DNA from: a virus
DNA: 24,290 nucleotides
Virus record (IMG/VR): IMGVR_UViG_3300007523_000088
Span: 1-24,290 of that record
Direction: 5' to 3' (one strand)
Below, in pieces: positions 3,801 to 24,290 of this stretch (positions are counted from its first letter, which is position 1; each line of letters starts with the position of its first letter). The notes beneath the pieces are model-generated. The model was not told the DNA's origin. It saw only the letters and a program-made list of their open reading frames with translations, and did no database searches. A program made the translations under genes and the position numbers.

Positions 3801-5371
3801 TAGTACTTTCAGGGCCAACTCCAGTAAAGCAGATGGTAGGAACCCCACTATCTGGATCAGACTCCATAGACCTATTAAACTATGTCTATAAAGATTTGGA
3901 TAGCGATTACAAGCATGTTGGCACAAGATTGAGAATAATCGGGACAAAGAAAGACGATAGTACTCAAAGTGCACTAAATTCAACAACCTATTTTAAAGGA
4001 CTTAATATAGATGTTGCTAATTCAAATGCAAACCTTACAGAGCTTTCTGGAGGATCTGGTGGGATAGGGTATATGGTAGATCCTGATACAAATTCTGGAT
4101 ATTATTTGGAAATTGCAGCACTCTCATCTGATATATTATCTTATTATAGTAGTGCCTCAGTTAATTTGTTAGGATCTGTACAAGTTCTTGAAAATATTAT
4201 TTTTTATAAAGTTGAAAAAACTCCATACTCTGTTCAACCTGCTGAAAAGATAAATATGGCTGTTCCAAAAAAACTTTGGGGATCTCTTGCAAGAATTCTT
4301 GTTGACGAAGGGAAATTTGCTGGATCAGATAGACTTGTGTCTCAAGAAATTCCAGTATACGATCTTGCCATAGAGGCAGAAATATTAGATAAAAAGATAA
4401 ACTTTTTCTTATATTTAAATAATAAGTTAATTGGAACTGTCACCGATGACAAGCCCTTGAATATGCCAGAAGGAGGTTTAAAAGTTTGCCTATTTACAAG
4501 AGCATCGTCAAAATGTATGTTTGAAAATATATATGCTTTAAAAAACAAGGCAGCAAATACTCAGTCTTTAACTGCAGGAACTGGCATAGATCTATCTATT
4601 TCGGAATCCTTGAGAAAATATTCTCTTCCATCAATAGTTCAATCAACATATATGTCCAGCATTTCTACAGAAACTTCTCCAAGAATTGAATATTACTTTG
4701 AAGAATTTGGAACTATTATGAGAGAGTGTGCATACTTTAATATTAAATATGATCAAGCCTACCCAGCAATAATTGCAAAAATTGTTCCACCATTTAGTAG
4801 CGAAAAGTCTTACGCAATATCAGGATTCTTGCCAGGGTCGTATGGAGCTGAGTTCTTAATCTTTAATACAACGGATAAAGCAATAGACCTGAGTGAAAGT
4901 TCAACTAATAGAATCATGATTCAAGGAATAACCTTCACGCAAAATATCTCAAATGTTCTAACAGTTGATGATTATTTTAAAGAGTTGTCAAACTTTTCAG
5001 ATCCAGTAATTAGCAATAGTTTAATCACATCTCCAGGAAGGTCTGAAAAAGTTTATAATAGTGTAAAAAATAGCAGGGCAATTCATGGAAACAAATCTTT
5101 CTCTATAAATTCTATATATATCCAAAATGAAGATTCTGCAAAAGATATCATGAAATGGATTTTAGATAAAACTATTAGACCAAGAAAAGTATTTGAAGTT
5201 GACACATTTGGAACACAACATATCCAACTTGGAGATTTGGTAAAAATTAATTTTGATTTACCAGAAGGTGTTAAAATGGTAGATGAGAATAAGAAATTTG
5301 TTGTAATATCTGCCACATATGGAAGATCTTCTTCAAATGTAAAAAGTCAATTAAGGTTAATGGAGGTTTAG
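881..5371 (+). CDS. Very large tail hub / minor tail protein with inserted modules
   Basis: I choose ATG 881 (1496 residues). It overlaps the previous stop as TAATG and has GAGGA six nt upstream; an in-frame ATG at 848 would add 11 residues but overlap the preceding gene by 34 nt without a good ribosome site. The C-terminal 95 residues (about 1400-1496), with VFEVDTFGTQHIQLGDLVKI, look like the final domain of phage tail hub (gp27/Tal-like) proteins, and residues about 430-650 resemble hub-type beta domains. Between them lie apparent insertions. Residues about 330-367 have a glycine-rich module (AYVVG, then LYIW and W) known from tail fibres. Residues about 1160-1225 resemble a LamG/concanavalin-like beta sandwich that could bind glycans. 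It would form the tail tip and contact the host. The hub role is fairly secure; the domain boundaries and binding role are inference. Confidence 0.7.
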   Translation: MFSDNDLINYLETNNSIDIDSLVIVEWNQNDLLNLDNCGNYRWRPESSSVVYRTLYPEYDSQDNANVYTDAMDSNIISQYRTEDEDEPLTFITKETSRELYYSLKDCIKPFRPRSGINKMLFFDEPAIENKKFVDSIRSGARPRYYFSSRFDKFKYWNSYRKENGEEFGISSKVATLFTTADPSYKINDCVPFVVYKNEVATNRIVIKMQTNLADPSAVGVNGEILVSERVRTGNILYDEPLQDIKKSSVPKRWKIQYLDSSNNWNDAISFNETSRRKDGSRVVLWNGHVEIYYGIKIPEEYRTNFHLFQYLDTVEQLPDTSTYNANGVKDGHAYVVGSSTSNPGTLYIWSSGKSDWVTSIADYGFSLLEDDDTKRIGLIKKIVDPDYFVVEGTNTYRDFIFIKGIRVVVETMYAPNTPFDLIEISPRLKTDLTDYTLDYEINKNISATDYGLPVGGLVASTGSINLSNHDGAFTELNTFNSSTKTGSIIANNLKPQVKIEFYESILDVNGYDKFVPLKTFYSENAAVATSGIQDVSLNLRDAFFLLESNNATPIFLQNCTLTMATALLLDGIGFSNYIFKNINTANDPVVPFFFVEPDVSVAEVLQRLAQATQTAMFFDEYNNFVIMPKEYLMPNISVRDDNSSITERLTTLYGQKTDGFVPNIEGISGFETKIINDGQINYTTRYIQREVSRLEQASLDLSERTYGYKSSILWELGQQAESRTINQPAANVGYALGAVPLATNLNNLAPYVENYQIKNNVIDVGDSAFWLPRFQGYLFSNGEIIRYDAHEYVVDVKTASATNNIVWITDNSEYQKYFSQLVFNGKMTMTGKLRIYTEPYYENASGSNFDNLEENVRYKNGEVKSHGRGQFGTSIATHPHGLDDYWKTPEIKRSFRMDSSKLFSTTSTELIEYASISASVSASAYPLGDDLVSKNQTLVSSKIVNWMKQSARSEYNFSTVKDTDVGGIQLSALVLSGPTPVKQMVGTPLSGSDSIDLLNYVYKDLDSDYKHVGTRLRIIGTKKDDSTQSALNSTTYFKGLNIDVANSNANLTELSGGSGGIGYMVDPDTNSGYYLEIAALSSDILSYYSSASVNLLGSVQVLENIIFYKVEKTPYSVQPAEKINMAVPKKLWGSLARILVDEGKFAGSDRLVSQEIPVYDLAIEAEILDKKINFFLYLNNKLIGTVTDDKPLNMPEGGLKVCLFTRASSKCMFENIYALKNKAANTQSLTAGTGIDLSISESLRKYSLPSIVQSTYMSSISTETSPRIEYYFEEFGTIMRECAYFNIKYDQAYPAIIAKIVPPFSSEKSYAISGFLPGSYGAEFLIFNTTDKAIDLSESSTNRIMIQGITFTQNISNVLTVDDYFKELSNFSDPVISNSLITSPGRSEKVYNSVKNSRAIHGNKSFSINSIYIQNEDSAKDIMKWILDKTIRPRKVFEVDTFGTQHIQLGDLVKINFDLPEGVKMVDENKKFVVISATYGRSSSNVKSQLRLMEV

Positions 5372-9147: not shown

Positions 9148-9455
9148 TGGCCGATAAGAAATATCGTTTTGCACTAATATCCAGATATAAGAGTTTGATA
9201 AAAAAAAGAAACTTAGATGACGAGAATATAAATCTTCATATTCAGCAGTGGGCTTCAGACTCACTAATCGAATCTTATGGCATGGAGAAGTGCTACGATT
9301 TACTCGAGTATTACGTTAGGGTTTCTGCACATCCAAATTGGAAGTGGTTTACAAATAATGCTGACAAGGTGTATGATGCAAAAACAATTAAAGAAAATGA
9401 TGATAGAACAAGAGAGCTCCTAAGGTCACAGGCAAAAGAATGGTTGGATAAATAG
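9147..9455 (+). CDS. Small helical protein next to helicase; possible helicase accessory
   Basis: A 102-residue basic, mainly helical protein. It starts at GTG 9147, which overlaps the preceding TAG by one base, and its own TAG overlaps the helicase GTG by one base, so three genes are coupled in a row. Residues 1-65 look like a compact helical bundle (LIKKRNLDDENINLHIQQWA) and include an aromatic cluster (HPNWKWF, residues 62-68). No catalytic motif is visible. Position directly before a DnaB-type helicase makes a helicase-loader or accessory role thinkable, but there is no sequence proof of it. Confidence 0.5.
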   Translation: MADKKYRFALISRYKSLIKKRNLDDENINLHIQQWASDSLIESYGMEKCYDLLEYYVRVSAHPNWKWFTNNADKVYDAKTIKENDDRTRELLRSQAKEWLDK

Positions 9456-10666
9456 TGTTAGATTTAGAAGCAAGGGTAATTTCTGCTGTTTTAAAAGATA
9501 AGCAGATACATGTTTTATTTCAAGCAAATCCTGATGCGCTATTTAGAACACATAAAGATGTTTGGGACTTTGTTAAAAATTATTATGAGCAAAATTCAAC
9601 AGTTCCAACACAATCGTTATTGGTAGAAAAGTTTAGAGATTTTTCACCAGAGGGTGAAGTTGGAACTACAAAGCATCATCTTGAAGAGCTTAGAACTAAA
9701 TATTTAGAAGATAATCTTAAGAATATTTTGATGGAAGGTGCTAAACAATTAAATAATCATCAACCAATTGAAGCTTTGAATACTGTTATATCAAAGACTT
9801 CAGATTTGAAAAGACTTAGTGCAAATGTAAGAGATATTGATGCAACAGACATTGAAGATGCCTCTGCACACTTTACTTTAATTAAGGAGTTAAATGAACA
9901 AGGTATTCATGGTATTAAAACTAATCTTGCAGGTTTCGATAATTATCTTCCTGCTGGGATTACTGCTGGCCAGTTTGGTATTCTACTTGCCTATCCAGCT
10001 ATTGGTAAGTCTTGGCTCGCTATTTTTATGGCCGTTCAAGCGTGGAAGTCAGGAAAAGTTCCGCTAGTTATTTCTCTTGAAATGACAGAAAAAGAAGTTC
10101 GTAATCGTGTTTATACAATTATGGGAGATGGAATGTTCTCTCATAGAAGATTGAGTTCTGGATTAATTGATGTTGAAGGATTCGAGGTGTGGGCTAATCA
10201 GCACTTAAAAGACAAGCCTCCGTTTTATATAGTTTCTAGCGATGGTCTTGGAGAAGTTTCTCCCTCTATAATTAGAGGAAAGATTGATCAATATTCTCCA
10301 GATGTTGTTTTTGTTGATTACATTCAACTCATGCAACCAAATAGTCAAACTGATAATGAAGTTGTAAAGATTAAGAATATCTCCAGAGAGTTAAAAGTGT
10401 TAGCCGTTTCATCAGAAGTTCCAATCATAGCTATTGCCTCAGCAACACCAAGTGATGCAACAGATATGGAGAGCGTTCCGTCACTTGGACAGGTCGCTTG
10501 GTCTAAGCAGTTAGCGTACGATGCTGACTGGGTCTTAGCCCTGGGACGTGCTGGTGGCAGTACAATTCTTGAATGTGTATTTAGAAAGAACCGACATGGA
10601 TTCTGTGGAGAGTTTATGATTGATATTGATTTCGATAGCGGTAGATTTATTTACAAGGACTTGTAA
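9455..10666 (+). CDS. dnaB: DnaB-like replicative DNA helicase
   Basis: A 403-residue RecA-fold helicase that would unwind DNA ahead of the phage polymerase as a ring hexamer. It starts at GTG 9455. Residues 1-110 form a DnaB-like N-terminal helical domain (shorter than in cellular DnaB), followed by a linker. The ATPase domain has a P-loop AYPAIGKS (about 179-186), the H1a-like ISLEM (206-210), Walker B DVVFVDYIQLM (about 283-293) and an arginine-finger region RKNR (377-380). The usual Gln-containing SQLN motif H4 is replaced here by ASATPSDAT (about 329-337), which is odd for the family. It is coupled to the gene upstream and is followed by a promoter for the gene at 10699. Confidence 0.9.
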   Translation: MLDLEARVISAVLKDKQIHVLFQANPDALFRTHKDVWDFVKNYYEQNSTVPTQSLLVEKFRDFSPEGEVGTTKHHLEELRTKYLEDNLKNILMEGAKQLNNHQPIEALNTVISKTSDLKRLSANVRDIDATDIEDASAHFTLIKELNEQGIHGIKTNLAGFDNYLPAGITAGQFGILLAYPAIGKSWLAIFMAVQAWKSGKVPLVISLEMTEKEVRNRVYTIMGDGMFSHRRLSSGLIDVEGFEVWANQHLKDKPPFYIVSSDGLGEVSPSIIRGKIDQYSPDVVFVDYIQLMQPNSQTDNEVVKIKNISRELKVLAVSSEVPIIAIASATPSDATDMESVPSLGQVAWSKQLAYDADWVLALGRAGGSTILECVFRKNRHGFCGEFMIDIDFDSGRFIYKDL

Positions 10667-12615: not shown

Positions 12616-12645
12616 AGTGGGGGAGAAATACTCCCCCACTCTTTT
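12616..12645 (+). terminator. Intrinsic terminator after the SSB gene
   Basis: AGTGGGGGAG (12616-12625) pairs perfectly with CTCCCCCACT (12631-12640) around the 5-nt loop AAATA, followed by CTTTT. This 10-bp GC-rich stem is exceptional in this AT-rich sequence and begins 5 nt after the SSB stop codon. No separate promoter is obvious before the polymerase gene at 12661, so some read-through is probably needed for it. Confidence 0.88.
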
Positions 12646-12660
12646 AATTGAAAGGTTAAA

Positions 12661-13950
12661 ATGACTTACGTTCCACTTCATGTACACACTCACTACTCCC
12701 TAATGGATGGAGTTGCGACACCAGAAGAATATGCAAAACGTGCTTCTGAGATTGGACTATCTGCTATTGCAGTAACAGACCACGGCGTTCTGTCGGGCCA
12801 TAGACCAATGTATAGGGCTGCAAAAGCAAATGGAATAAAGCCTATATTGGGCATTGAAGGCTATATCACAGCAGATAGATTTGACACAAGAGATAAATCT
12901 GAAAGAACTGATCCATTAGACATGGTTTATAACCACATAGTTCTTCTTGCAAAAAATGATAAAGGTTTGGAAAATTTAAATAAGTTAAATGAGTTAGCTT
13001 GGACTGAAGGATATTACAGAAAGCCAAGAATTGACTTTGAAATTTTAGAAAAATATAAAGAGGGAATTATAGTATTGTCAGCCTGTATGAGTGGGCTTCT
13101 TGCTAAAGCAATTGAGCATAAAGAATATGCTGCTGCAAAAAAACTAATGACTTGGTTCAAAGAAAACTTTGGGGATGACTTTTATGTTGAGCTTATGCCA
13201 CATAATCCTGCGGAACTAAATAAAGAATTATTAGAAATGGCTGACACCTACGATGTCAAGCCAGTAGTAACACCTGATTGCCACCACTCTGACAAGAGTC
13301 AAAAAGTAATCCAGGAAATGATGCTACTTCTTAATACCCATGCAAAGGTTAAGAAAGATACAACTTTTGAAAAGGCTTCAAAGATTGAAGACCCAATGAA
13401 AAGACTTGACTATTTATATGGGGAAGATAGAATGATGAGTTTTAGAACATTTGATATTCACCTATTGTCTTATGAAGAAATTAAAACTGCCATGCAAAAT
13501 CAGGGAATCAAGCGTGAAGATATCTATGAAAATACTGTTGAGATTGCAAACAAGGTTGAAGAATATACAATTCATAGTGGGCTCGAACTTCTTCCAATAA
13601 ATGTTGAAGATCCAGATCAAGAACTTATGGCACTTGCTTATAGAGGAATAAATCTAAAGGGATTCTCTGAAAATAAAGAATATTTAGATAGATTAGATTT
13701 AGAACTTAGTGTTATTAAGTCAAAAAACTTTTCACCATATTTCTTAGTTGTTAATAATATGATTAGTTGGGCAAAAGAGCAAGGCATTATGGTTGGTCCA
13801 GGTCGAGGTAGTGCTGCAGGTTCTTTGGTATGCTATGCACTTGGAATTACAGATATTGATCCTATTGAATATGGATTGCTTTTCTTTAGATTTATAAGTG
13901 GTGACCAGGCTAAGTGGGAAAGTTTTTCAGGTTTTGATTTGGCCATTTGA
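12661..13950 (+). CDS. dnaE: DNA polymerase III alpha (DnaE), N-terminal fragment
   Basis: A 429-residue N-terminal part of a C-family replicative polymerase; AAAGG lies 5 nt before ATG. The PHP domain is at residues 1-270, with its metal motifs intact (HVHTHYSLMDG at 7-17, TDHG at 39-42, DCHH at 206-209). The start of the palm follows, with the phosphate-binding loop GPGRGSAAGS (379-388), then GITDIDP and GLLFFRFIS ending at residue 413. Normal DnaE would continue within about 6 residues to the PDxDxDF catalytic motif. Here 16 unrelated residues follow and then TGA, so this product has no catalytic aspartates and cannot polymerise alone. The missing part is encoded at 14494-16755. It could be one half of a two-chain polymerase, or an exon if the insertion is spliced. 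Confidence 0.88.
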   Translation: MTYVPLHVHTHYSLMDGVATPEEYAKRASEIGLSAIAVTDHGVLSGHRPMYRAAKANGIKPILGIEGYITADRFDTRDKSERTDPLDMVYNHIVLLAKNDKGLENLNKLNELAWTEGYYRKPRIDFEILEKYKEGIIVLSACMSGLLAKAIEHKEYAAAKKLMTWFKENFGDDFYVELMPHNPAELNKELLEMADTYDVKPVVTPDCHHSDKSQKVIQEMMLLLNTHAKVKKDTTFEKASKIEDPMKRLDYLYGEDRMMSFRTFDIHLLSYEEIKTAMQNQGIKREDIYENTVEIANKVEEYTIHSGLELLPINVEDPDQELMALAYRGINLKGFSENKEYLDRLDLELSVIKSKNFSPYFLVVNNMISWAKEQGIMVGPGRGSAAGSLVCYALGITDIDPIEYGLLFFRFISGDQAKWESFSGFDLAI

Positions 13951-13967
13951 TGAATGTGTGATATACT
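13939..13967 (+). promoter_or_regulatory. Extended -10 promoter of the HNH gene, leaderless
   Basis: TGATATACT (13959-13967) is an extended -10 with one mismatch, and TTGGCC (13939-13944) is a moderate -35 (4 of 6) at 17-nt spacing. The hexamer ends 6 nt before the HNH ATG at 13974, the same geometry as at 10684/10699, so the mRNA would start at the ATG. It lies right after the DnaE N-fragment stop and would let the endonuclease be made independently of the polymerase transcript. Confidence 0.6.
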
Positions 13968-13973
13968 TAAATT

Positions 13974-14552
13974 ATGAAAAGATGTCCCCTATGCGGAATT
14001 ACTAAAGATTTTTCAGAGTATCACAGAAGCTCTAAGACATCTAATGGTGTTCAGGGTCATTGTAAAGAGTGTAAGAAGGTCCTGTCAAAAAAATATGAAG
14101 CAACTAGAAGCAAGGAAAAAAAGAGTGAGTACGGGAAAGCTCGCTGGCAAAAAGTAAGAGGTGACCCCGTTTATTTAAAAAAGCATAAAGAATGGCGTGA
14201 TCGAAATCCCGAAAGAATAAAAGAGACTCTAGCAATATATAGGAAAAAGAATAGGGTTCAGCTACTCGCTCACAGGAGTAATCAAAAGTGTAGGAATAAG
14301 GGTTATCCTGGTATACTAAGCGTGAAAGAGTGGGAAGCGGCACTACAATTAACAAAGTATCTATGCATTGCCTGTGAAGAAGTTTTTGCAGATAGTGTAG
14401 ACCATGTAATTCCATTGATTAATGGGGGCCATAACGCCTATGACAATATACAGCCAATGTGCCTGAGGTGCAACTTAAAGAAAGGTAGAAGACATGTCGA
14501 TTTTAGACCTGAAGGATTTAGTGAGTCAATCAAAGAGATCTGTTCTAGATGA
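13974..14552 (+). CDS. HNH homing-type endonuclease with N-terminal zinc finger
   Basis: A 192-residue protein. Residues 4-33 hold a CxxC...CxxC zinc finger (C4, C7, C30, C33), common at the N-terminus of actinophage HNH endonucleases. A very basic helical linker follows (about 35-110). The HNH/beta-beta-alpha-metal domain occupies about 128-171: zinc Cys pairs C131/C134 and C163/C166, catalytic DH at 143-144, GGHN at 151-154, N158, and CNLKKG at the end, so the active site looks intact. It would cut a DNA target, most plausibly an uninterrupted dnaE of a related phage, to spread its own gene. It has its own leaderless promoter, and its last 59 nt overlap the start of the DnaE C-terminal gene. 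Confidence 0.85.
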   Translation: MKRCPLCGITKDFSEYHRSSKTSNGVQGHCKECKKVLSKKYEATRSKEKKSEYGKARWQKVRGDPVYLKKHKEWRDRNPERIKETLAIYRKKNRVQLLAHRSNQKCRNKGYPGILSVKEWEAALQLTKYLCIACEEVFADSVDHVIPLINGGHNAYDNIQPMCLRCNLKKGRRHVDFRPEGFSESIKEICSR

Positions 14553-16755
14553 TTCGTGGGTAGTTGACGAGATATGTGCAATAAATAATCTTAAAATTGA
14601 AGATCTATATCTGAAGCATGTTGGTAAAGAAAAGGTATCTAACAAGATTTCTTCTTCAGTTGCATACTTGATTGGGATAACAGATGAAGAACCAAAGACC
14701 TATCCTGTAGGCTTAGAGGTTTATCATGGCCGCGAGGACTTCCCAGACATAGATACTGACTTTGCAGATGATAGGCGAGAAGAAGTAAAGTCATATCTTG
14801 AACGGGAATATAAAAATGTTGCATCTATTGCTACATTCTTAGAATTTAAAGAAAAGGGTGTTGTAAGAGATGTTGCCAGAGCATTTAACATCCCTCTTAA
14901 TGATGTGAATAAAGTTTTGAAGAGTGTTGACACTTGGGAAGACTTTACAAGATCAGCAGGAGCACAATGGTTTAGAATGAAATACCCTGAAATTGTTAAA
15001 TATGGTGAGCAACTTAGAGGAAGAATCCGTGGAACTGGAATCCATGCTGCAGGAGTTGTTACTGCAAAGGATGAAATTTTTAAATATGCACCACTTGAAA
15101 CACGGGTAGCCCCAGGTAGTAAGAAAAGAATTCCAGTAGTCGCAGTTGATATGGAAGAAGCTGCTGAAATTGGACTTATTAAACTTGATATTCTTGGTCT
15201 AAAAACATTGACTGTAATTGATCAGACTATTAAAACAATTAAAGAACGTCACGGAATAGATATTGATCTAAAGGCAATACCCCTAAATGACAGAAAAGTA
15301 TTTGAAATGCTGTCTGAGGGGCGTACTAAGGGTGTCTTCCAGTGTGAGGCAAGGCCTTATACAAATCTTTTGATTAAGTTGAGGGTTAATAACTTTGATG
15401 AATTAGTTGCATCCAATGCTCTTGTTAGACCAGGTGCTATGAATACCATTGGAAAATCATACATTGCCCGTAAGCATGGCAAGGAGATGGTGGAATATAT
15501 TCATCCGTCTATGAATGATTATTTGAAAGATACCTATGGATGTGTTTTGTATCAGGAGCAAGTAATGCAAGCGTGTGTTATTCTCGGTGGCATGACAATG
15601 GTTGAGGCGGACAAGGTTCGTAAGATTATTGGAAAGAAAAAGGATGCCAAAGAGTTTGACCTCTTTAAAGATAAGTTTATTAACAATGCAGAAAAGCATA
15701 TCGGAATTAGGGCAACAAAGTTATGGCACGATTTCGAGGCTCATGCAGGATATTCCTTTAACAAGTCTCACGCTGTCGCATACTCAACGCTATCCTATTG
15801 GACTGCTTGGCTTAAGCAATACTACCCAATCGAATTTATATTCTCAATTCTAAAGAGTGAGAAAGATAGCGATACCCGTACAGAATATTTAATTGAGGCA
15901 AAGCGCATGGGAATCTCGTTAAAGCTTCCACATATCAATGAGTCAGATTCAGACTTCAAAATTGAGGGCAATGGCATTAGATTTGGCCTTGCTGCAATCA
16001 AGTGGCTATCTGACGGAGTTGCCAAGAAGATTATTTTAGGTAGACCGTTTCAGTCGAAGCAAGAGTTCCAAGACTTCTCTCATGAAAAGGCAAGTGGAAT
16101 TAGTTCAAGAGCAGTCGAAGCACTTGATTCAATTGGCGCATTAACATTTGCAGATAATCCGAGGGATGAAGAAAGGGTAAGAGAAAATCTTTATGAGTAT
16201 CTTAATCTACCTGAATTGAATACAAGCATTCCTCAACACTATTATGCTTATGTAAGTTTGATAGAAGAATTTGATGAAGAAAATGTATTTGTTCTTCTTG
16301 GCATTGCAAAAAATATTAAGCGTGGTAAAGGTTGGTCAAGAGTAGAAATTATGGACTCAACTGGAGTAGTCGGAATATTTGATGAAGAAGAGACTAAAAT
16401 TGAGCCTGGAAGAACATATTTAATTCTTGCAGGTGCAAATAGAATCTCTGAAGCAATTCCAGTTGATGAATTAAAAGAGCATAAAGATAGTCCTCTTATT
16501 AAGTTTTTAAACTATAAGCAAGTCCCATTTGCAAATGATGAGCACTTTGTGCTATCATTTACTCCAAGGGTTACTAAGGCTGGAAAAAGAATGGCTAATA
16601 TGATTGTTGCTAATAGTTCAAGAGAGATGATTGCTGCAATGGTATTTCCAACAATGTTCTCGACTGGGTACATGAAGTGTCAGCCAGGTAGCGTGGCAAA
16701 GATTAATTTTGGAAAGACAAAAGAAGGAACTACTACACTAATGGAGGTATTATAA
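14494..16755 (+). CDS. dnaE: DNA polymerase III alpha (DnaE), C-terminal fragment
   Basis: A 753-residue fragment with the catalytic core. Clear DnaE sequence begins at residue 80 with REDFPDIDTDF, giving the aspartates D85 and D87; the third is D232 in IKLDILGLKTL. Next come the fingers, with ALVRPG, LYQEQVM and HAGYSFNKSHAVAYSTLSY, then a helix-hairpin-helix-like part and a C-terminal OB-like region (about 590-750). Together with the 429-residue fragment the total (1182) is near normal DnaE length. ATG 14494 lies inside the HNH gene, with AAAGG 8 nt upstream; no other ATG occurs before residue 162, so the start is plausible. Residues 43-79 resemble a degenerate copy of the segment ending the N-fragment. 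Catalysis would need the partner for the PHP domain and the GPGRG loop. Confidence 0.88.
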   Translation: MSILDLKDLVSQSKRSVLDDSWVVDEICAINNLKIEDLYLKHVGKEKVSNKISSSVAYLIGITDEEPKTYPVGLEVYHGREDFPDIDTDFADDRREEVKSYLEREYKNVASIATFLEFKEKGVVRDVARAFNIPLNDVNKVLKSVDTWEDFTRSAGAQWFRMKYPEIVKYGEQLRGRIRGTGIHAAGVVTAKDEIFKYAPLETRVAPGSKKRIPVVAVDMEEAAEIGLIKLDILGLKTLTVIDQTIKTIKERHGIDIDLKAIPLNDRKVFEMLSEGRTKGVFQCEARPYTNLLIKLRVNNFDELVASNALVRPGAMNTIGKSYIARKHGKEMVEYIHPSMNDYLKDTYGCVLYQEQVMQACVILGGMTMVEADKVRKIIGKKKDAKEFDLFKDKFINNAEKHIGIRATKLWHDFEAHAGYSFNKSHAVAYSTLSYWTAWLKQYYPIEFIFSILKSEKDSDTRTEYLIEAKRMGISLKLPHINESDSDFKIEGNGIRFGLAAIKWLSDGVAKKIILGRPFQSKQEFQDFSHEKASGISSRAVEALDSIGALTFADNPRDEERVRENLYEYLNLPELNTSIPQHYYAYVSLIEEFDEENVFVLLGIAKNIKRGKGWSRVEIMDSTGVVGIFDEEETKIEPGRTYLILAGANRISEAIPVDELKEHKDSPLIKFLNYKQVPFANDEHFVLSFTPRVTKAGKRMANMIVANSSREMIAAMVFPTMFSTGYMKCQPGSVAKINFGKTKEGTTTLMEVL

Positions 16756-23428: not shown

Positions 23429-24290
23429 TTGAAAGAATACTTAGAAAATAATGACATCTGTTTTGATGATATCTTAATGGTTCCTCAATATTCAGAAGTT
23501 GTTAGTAGAAGTTCTGTTGATTTAAAAATGCTAGTAGCAAGATCTTGCTGGTTAGATTTTCCAGTAATTGCGTCCCCTATGGATACCGTTTGTGAGACTG
23601 AGATGGCATCTGCTATGGCATACGCAGGAGGGATGGGAATTATCCATAGATTTATGTCTGTTAAAAGACAGCTTGCGATGGTAGAAGAAGCTTCAGAATT
23701 AGGACTTGTTGCAGTAGGTGCAGCAATTTCATCTACATTTACTGAAGAGCAAGTAAGAAAACTTATAAATGCTGGGGCATCATTGTTACTAATTGATTCA
23801 GCTAATGGTCATAGTAAGATGGTGATAGATGCAACAAAAAGGCTAAAAGATGTTGTTGGACATAGTGTATCTATCATGTCTGGGAATGTTTCTACAGTAG
23901 CAGGATATCTCGCACTAAGCGATGCTGGCGCAGACTCTATTAGAGTAGGTATAGGTGGTGGCAGCATGTGCACAACGAGGATTGTGTCAGGACATGGTGT
24001 TCCAACACTGTCTTCAATTATAAACATCCGACAGGCAAGAGATAAGTTTAGCTTAAGTGCTGGAATCGTTGCTGATGGTGGCATACGCAATACTGGAGAT
24101 ATGATCAAGGCTTTTGCAGCAGGAGCAGACTCAGTTATGCTTGGATCGATGCTGGCAGGTACAGACGAATCTCCAGGGTCTATATATATGAATGGTAATA
24201 AAAAATATAAATCATTTAGAGGTATGGCAAGCAAAGAAGCTAATAAAACAAAAGATATTGCAGTTGCAGAAGGAGTTTCAGGAATGATTC
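23429..24290 (+). CDS. guaB: IMP dehydrogenase-like protein lacking CBS domains (partial)
   Basis: The frame is open to the window end; 287 residues are seen and the 3' end is missing. Start TTG 23429 is chosen because the conserved FDDILMVPQYS begins at residue 12 and the first in-frame ATG is inside it. A four-codon ORF (ATG 23418 to TGA 23432) overlaps the TTG and may couple translation. The barrel shows SPMDTV (49-54), LLIDSANGHS (120-129), the active-site loop GIGGGSMCTTR (174-184, catalytic Cys about 181), DGGI, and MLAGTDESPG followed by YKSFRGMAS. The Arg in that last motif favours IMP dehydrogenase over GMP reductase. The regulatory CBS pair, usually inserted after the HR.MS region, is absent. 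It would convert IMP to XMP, raising guanine nucleotide supply. Confidence 0.85.
   Translation, partial: MKEYLENNDICFDDILMVPQYSEVVSRSSVDLKMLVARSCWLDFPVIASPMDTVCETEMASAMAYAGGMGIIHRFMSVKRQLAMVEEASELGLVAVGAAISSTFTEEQVRKLINAGASLLLIDSANGHSKMVIDATKRLKDVVGHSVSIMSGNVSTVAGYLALSDAGADSIRVGIGGGSMCTTRIVSGHGVPTLSSIINIRQARDKFSLSAGIVADGGIRNTGDMIKAFAAGADSVMLGSMLAGTDESPGSIYMNGNKKYKSFRGMASKEANKTKDIAVAEGVSGMI

Follow-up and report, generated by a model that had tools for sequence, protein, structure and literature searches.

Enzymes that were split by homing endonucleases and are active as two chains have been described in Aeromonas phages, namely NrdA of Aeh1 (PMC2988022, PMC3653736) and gp43 of phage 25 (PMC2988022). 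The present study concerns dnaE, the gene of the C-family DNA polymerase III alpha subunit (Pol III alpha), in an uncultured phage represented by the IMG/VR virus record IMGVR_UViG_3300007523_000088. The whole record, 24,290 nucleotides (nt), was analysed and is referred to as the window. Its dnaE consists of two open reading frames (ORFs), p1 (dnaE-N) and p2 (dnaE-C), with an HNH gene between them. To our knowledge, replicative polymerases of the C family are nearly always a single chain across the palm. We consider it probable that a homing endonuclease insertion has left this polymerase as genes in pieces, with two chains that assemble non-covalently across the palm and are active.

The nrdA-a/mobE/nrdA-b arrangement of Aeh1 resembles the proposed organization of the window in that an HNH gene lies between separately translated halves of an essential enzyme, interrupted in a critical region, and no self-splicing intron is involved (PMC2988022, PMC3653736). 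It differs in that the enzyme is a ribonucleotide reductase, not a polymerase, and its function in the split state was shown experimentally. Gene 43, which encodes PolB, is split in Aeromonas phages 25 (seg43) and 44RR (43A/43B), giving a two-chain replicative polymerase like that proposed here; the two chains of phage 25 gp43 co-purify and are active, and a homing endonuclease lies between the halves (PMC2988022). A review suggests that the endonuclease of phage 25 may have invaded a gene that was already split (PMC2988022). Gp43 is, however, a Family B polymerase with another fold and another split position.

Group 2.2 jumbo phages are predicted to encode a split minimal Pol III alpha (PMC7824862). 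As in the window, the C-family catalytic domain is divided, with an NTP (nucleoside triphosphate)-binding N-terminal protein and a separate Mg2+/template-binding C-terminal protein. In contrast to the window, the jumbo-phage enzyme lacks the other Pol III domains, its parts lie at distant loci beside PolB, and no homing endonuclease between them is reported (PMC7824862); the split is a prediction there as well. The sequence-only reading of the window had called a C-family polymerase joined within the palm unusual. This has to be narrowed, as palm-split Pol III alpha was already predicted in these jumbo phages (PMC7824862), and polymerases and reductases that homing endonucleases have left in pieces are known from experiment (PMC2988022). 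The open-access literature yielded no description of a complete DnaE, PHP domain included, that is divided within the palm and whose halves overlap at their ends, the second having a start of its own.

The split dnaE and its intact relatives

The DnaE signature is complete over p1 and p2, comprising the PHP domain, the GS motif and the three catalytic aspartates. The ORFs, their coordinates and their motifs are as first described: PHP and the GPGRGSAAGS loop are in p1, D85, D87 and D232 are in p2, and the HNH gene is between (Table 1). All three aspartates are invariant in 26 homologues. In p1, the PHP domain occupies residues 6–181 and the start of the DNA_pol3_alpha domain residues 336–415. 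Residues 1–412 are native, the palm running to LLFFRFI, after which come about 16 unrelated residues and TGATGA. The sequence-only reading had noticed this foreign tail, and indeed its 15–17 residues show no homology, resembling the PDID region no better than shuffles do. In p2, DNA_pol3_alpha covers residues 53–235, the fingers 238–401 and HHH 473–557. The two lengths had been thought to add up to a normal DnaE, which is incorrect: 429 and 753 residues make 1182, against 1089 in intact relatives, and the 93 extra residues come from the p1 tail and a p2 extension of about 79 residues. Read-through from p1 into p2 is ruled out by the many stops in frame 1 between them.

A second IMG/VR contig, L043 (56,237 bases), has the identical p1/HNH/p2 layout. 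It is 99.93% identical to the window across 14,259 bp, with 10 single-nucleotide differences, none of them in the insert. The layout is therefore not an assembly accident, and the split of dnaE is real.

The comparison set consisted of 74 loci from IMG/VR. The search for close phages with an uninterrupted dnaE was successful: over 40 contigs are about 87–90% identical to the window, and all are intact where they span the break site. Among all loci that span the site, dnaE is uninterrupted in every one except L043. The close relatives have a single dnaE of 1089 residues, which reads LLFFRFINPDR(N/D)DFPDIDSDIADD at the break and carries LLFFRFINPDRNDFPDID in one frame. The nearest relatives among isolates are Streptomyces phages of the BillNye kind, at about 50% identity, and the BillNye dnaE is intact.

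Compared with the intact relative L046, the ratio of nonsynonymous to synonymous substitution rates (dN/dS) is 0.06 in p1 and likewise 0.06 in p2, values that resemble those obtained when intact relatives are compared with each other. Both halves are thus under strong purifying selection relative to intact relatives. That the split gene is functional rather than decaying, as first argued, is supported by two open frames and a dN/dS of about 0.06 per half, a value that cannot be dated to after the split. An inactivated dnaE, with the phage relying on another polymerase or on that of the host, would fit the interruption of the palm; we find it highly improbable, for it is contradicted by the two open and strongly constrained frames and by the agreement of two assemblies on the layout. 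The remaining genes of the replication operon are intact. In the 56-kb contig L043, where the search did not extend to other polymerase families, a second DnaE palm domain was not found; beyond the part that this contig has in common with the window, ORFs above 420 residues occur only at the tail-gene end.

Table 1. Features of the interrupted dnaE region (positions in the window)
Feature	Position	Strand	Evidence
dnaE-N (p1, 429 residues): PHP and first palm half	12661..13950	+	ORF, Pfam, comparison with relatives
GPGRGSAAGS loop (dNTP-phosphate-binding motif; dNTP, deoxynucleoside triphosphate) in p1	13795..13824	+	sequence; conserved in relatives
Overlapping palm segment, native copy in p1 (GSLVCYALGITDIDPIEYGLLFFRFI)	13819..13896	+	comparison with relatives
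Promoter-like TTGGCC-N17-TATACT, TG before second hexamer	13939..13967	+	consensus match only
Putative HNH homing-type endonuclease, 192 residues, without Shine-Dalgarno sequence	13974..14552	+	Pfam HNH/HNH_5; PHROG
Candidate Shine-Dalgarno sequence GAAAGG of p2, within HNH gene	14480..14485	+	sequence; motif same as before p1
dnaE-C (p2, 753 residues): extension, catalytic palm half, fingers, HHH, C-terminal domains	14494..16755	+	ORF, profiles, Foldseek
p2 N-terminal extension, 79 residues, absent from intact relatives	14494..14730	+	alignment; open frame, codon usage
Overlapping palm segment, divergent second copy in p2 (SSSVAYLIGITDEEPKTYPVGLEVYHG)	14650..14730	+	protein-level similarity
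Catalytic D85 and D87 (PDIDTD) of p2	14746..14754	+	invariant in homologues
Third catalytic aspartate D232 of p2	15187..15189	+	invariant in homologues

The p2 extension and the intron question

Going upstream from DFPDID, the frame of p2 stays open over 86 codons. Its ATG has the GAAAGG motif at good spacing upstream, and the same motif stands directly upstream of p1. The 59 codons past the HNH stop were open in 10 of 4000 dinucleotide shuffles (0.25%), and the codon usage of all 10 was further from that of the phage than the usage of the real stretch. An open extension with a Shine-Dalgarno sequence, an ATG and phage codon usage argues for separate translation of p2, which we infer to start at ATG 14494.

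A point missed by the sequence-only reading is that the ends of p1 and p2 overlap in homology. Residues 53–79 of p2 are homologous to the DnaE palm segment that also ends p1. DnaE models of Pfam, PHROG and NCBIfam mostly match p2 from residue 52–54, and 27–29 profile positions are matched both at the end of p1 and at the start of p2. The alignment of SSSVAYLIGITDEEPKTY with GSLVCYALGITDIDPIEY has a Z of 9, and none of 1000 shuffles was as good. When a profile covering all 150 residues of the region was used, equally high scores arose anywhere in 12 of about 5000 shuffles, while the real DnaE-like match in the extension also lies within about 2 residues of register. At the DNA level the similarity of the overlap is not significant against p1 and is inconsistent against the relatives. 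A recent simple duplication is an unlikely source of the extension because the overlap is undetectable in DNA; the protein-level similarity points either to a distant dnaE or to an old copy whose character survived in the protein. Residues 1–52 of p2 resemble the start of the palm no better than shuffles do. A donor search in IMG/VR with IGITDEEP and YPVGLEVYHG returned L043 only, other IGITDEEP matches being rejected as donors for they are not DnaE. A sequence search of the PDB with the extension gave no match.

The ORF at the break matches Pfam HNH and HNH_5 as well as PHROG 1035 (endonuclease VII) and HNH families, profiles by which it is assigned as an HNH endonuclease. The protein is 25–36% identical to the products of HNH genes of Streptomyces and other phages, and in IMG/VR a close relative was found only in L043. 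A promoter-like site with an extended -10-like box ends 6 nt 5′ of its ATG, and promoter-like matches in the insert region show no clear excess over shuffles. Since this box is so near the ATG and a Shine-Dalgarno sequence is lacking, the HNH transcript could be leaderless or nearly so.

No intein family was found at E ≤ 10 in the p2 extension or the p1 tail (Pfam, NCBIfam), and the p2 junction reads YHG/RED, without His-Asn. The absence of a split or contiguous intein is further supported by the lack of Hint-domain motifs at the junctions, as the sequence-only reading had also found. For a group II intron there was no GUGYG...AY pair with a native-length in-frame product, and no Rfam group II match.

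The main rival is that the HNH gene sits in a self-splicing intron, of group I or another kind. Splicing would give one DnaE of 1089 residues, and the start and open frame of p2 would be fortuitous. We regard such an intron as possible, if unlikely. Several observations weigh on its side or against a two-chain enzyme. The dnaE genes of Bacillus phages G and KLEB27-3 contain homing endonucleases in intron-like inserts. The part of the insert outside ORFs is 249 nt, which leaves room for a minimal group I intron. The boundary pair 13893/14719 places a U last in the exon and a G last in the intron, and gives the native-length, in-frame LLFFRFVYHGREDFPDID; it is the one native-length group-I-compatible pair that keeps the conserved Arg. 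The low dN/dS may for the most part be older than the split. Apart from L043, no relative has the insert.

On the other side, chance alone would give about 2 native-length U/G boundary pairs, and 2 were seen. The covariance-model search that had been proposed was run against Rfam at gathering and permissive thresholds and matched the insert to no intron family at E ≤ 10; this negative is weak evidence because, among the positive controls, the T4 td intron was also missed while nrdB was found. A home-made search for the group I core (P3/P7/P8) missed T4 td as well and was discarded. The insert folds no better than its shuffles (z = +0.85). Several features of the insert are unexpected in an intron: the 59-codon open frame past the HNH gene with phage codon usage (P about 0.0025), the Shine-Dalgarno sequence and ATG at the start of the p2 frame, and the DnaE-like stretch in register. 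The intron that the sequence-only reading offered as an alternative still stands as the main rival, although the open frame and DnaE-like character of the p2 extension lower its likelihood.

The two Bacillus phages allow a direct comparison. The dnaE of phage G (gp329/homing endonuclease gp330/gp339) is, like that of the window, interrupted close to the first catalytic aspartates, between KLP and DIDIDF and within about 8 codons of the break of the window. It differs in that the 3′ piece lacks a start codon and its frame is closed 4 codons upstream, and for these reasons the insert is likely an intron. KLEB27-3 also has two dnaE coding sequences with an HNH gene between, but its break is in the fingers (reference residues 621–636), and its ends are exon-like, with neither overlap nor start codon; the downstream frame is closed 3 codons upstream. 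The insertions of both phages look like introns, and the window differs from them in appearance.

Some further details of these two loci were recorded. The phage G dnaE (locus L150, 238000–252000) is in at least 3 coding pieces, namely gp329, an unannotated stretch and gp339. Gp329 has an intein-like C-terminus, VYDLTV...AVHN/SAAGS, in the GRGS motif and ends in NPTRGKLP. The unannotated stretch follows gp330, runs from about locus position 4700 and begins DIDIDFCIKNRG; the gene also has a second interruption. The insert of KLEB27-3 (locus L120, 4870–5879) is 1 kb, contains the HNH gene, lies at GLFQIE/..GMQKMFKG and has no Rfam intron match. PHROG 7513 and 12219, which end and begin at the break site, were set aside as evidence for the window, as both fit phage G best.

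Proposed assembly of the palm from two chains

AlphaFold2 was run on p2 alone with a 26-sequence alignment, in which the extension was without alignment support. Much of the fingers and the C-terminal domains were modelled with good confidence, and Foldseek matches of the model were Pol III alpha. In the palm, the predicted local distance difference test score (pLDDT) was below 50 at residues 1–118 and 178–233, and no catalytic strand was formed. The control was the same region of intact L046, including the palm half that corresponds to p1, with an equally deep alignment. Here the first palm helices had pLDDT of about 80–93 and the PDIDSD strand about 81, and the position of the seam fell in a lower-confidence block (61). 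It thus appears that p2 depends on p1 for its palm, which is confident only when the p1 half is modelled. The extension is not predicted to replace it.

These models bear on the idea that p2 is a self-sufficient polymerase, its extension replacing the first palm half, and p1 a separate PHP protein. DnaE is encoded as two chains in Rhodococcus phage Peregrin, Mycobacterium phage Aikoy and Microbacterium phage FreddieHg, which have PHP and polymerase as separate, neighbouring genes, and residues 53–79 of p2 are palm-like. These three differ from the window in that the cut is at the domain boundary before the palm, which is therefore whole. The p2 extension has KVSNKISSS where GxGRGSxxGS would stand, and the palm of p2 is not predicted to fold alone. 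The palm half of p1 is kept to LLFFRFI, with mostly synonymous differences in codons 331–413, which contradicts a self-sufficient p2. We think this idea very unlikely.

A polymerase of two chains joined in the palm, as the sequence-only reading had envisaged, remains the best reading, with the group I intron still its main rival. An HNH homing-endonuclease cassette would have entered dnaE past the helix LLFFRFI and ahead of the catalytic strand PDIDxD, in the most conserved stretch of the gene; this insertion route we infer. Two genes would result, each translated separately, and the start of the second would lie within the HNH gene. P1 would supply PHP, the GS motif that binds the dNTP phosphates and the first palm helices, and p2 the 79-residue extension, the catalytic strands with every catalytic aspartate, and the remainder of the enzyme. 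Both chains would co-fold or associate non-covalently and so rebuild the palm of an active replicative polymerase, the assembly and the activity being suggested indirectly by the dN/dS values and the model of p2 alone, with the split Aeromonas enzymes as precedents. The cassette may have carried in part of a distant dnaE, as suggested by an overlap seen in protein and not in DNA. It is a doubtful, more specific proposal that the two chains meet within the palm immediately ahead of the first catalytic aspartates and that the divergent palm segment brought by the cassette serves as an assembly element at the head of the catalytic chain.

All genes of the window are on a single strand. They include tail genes, a DnaB-like helicase, primase, SSB, dnaE, a MazG-like pyrophosphatase, RecA/UvsX, Holliday junction resolvases, a Cas4-type exonuclease and terminase. 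A strong terminator-like hairpin (10 pairs, 7 of them G-C) with a T-rich tail is located at 12616–12640, in the gap between the SSB gene and dnaE-N. The DnaB-like helicase gene (9455–10666) starts with GTG and matches its PHROG profile only from position 160 of 621, its N-terminal domain apparently missing. The partial ORF at the window end (23429–24289) resembles IMP dehydrogenase/GMP reductase by inspection of its sequence.

Implications for split polymerases

The novelty of the locus is moderate, as a palm-split minimal Pol III alpha was already predicted and the phage G insertion lies within about 8 codons. Taken with phage G, the window suggests that homing endonucleases repeatedly target the part of dnaE that encodes the catalytic DxD motif. 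The intact relatives at about 87–90% identity allow a direct comparison. If the two-chain polymerase is real, it would be a natural case with a seam adjoining the catalytic aspartates and would open to experiment the split Pol III alpha that is predicted in the jumbo phages. It would also mean that a selfish endonuclease can make two genes from one essential gene without loss of function.

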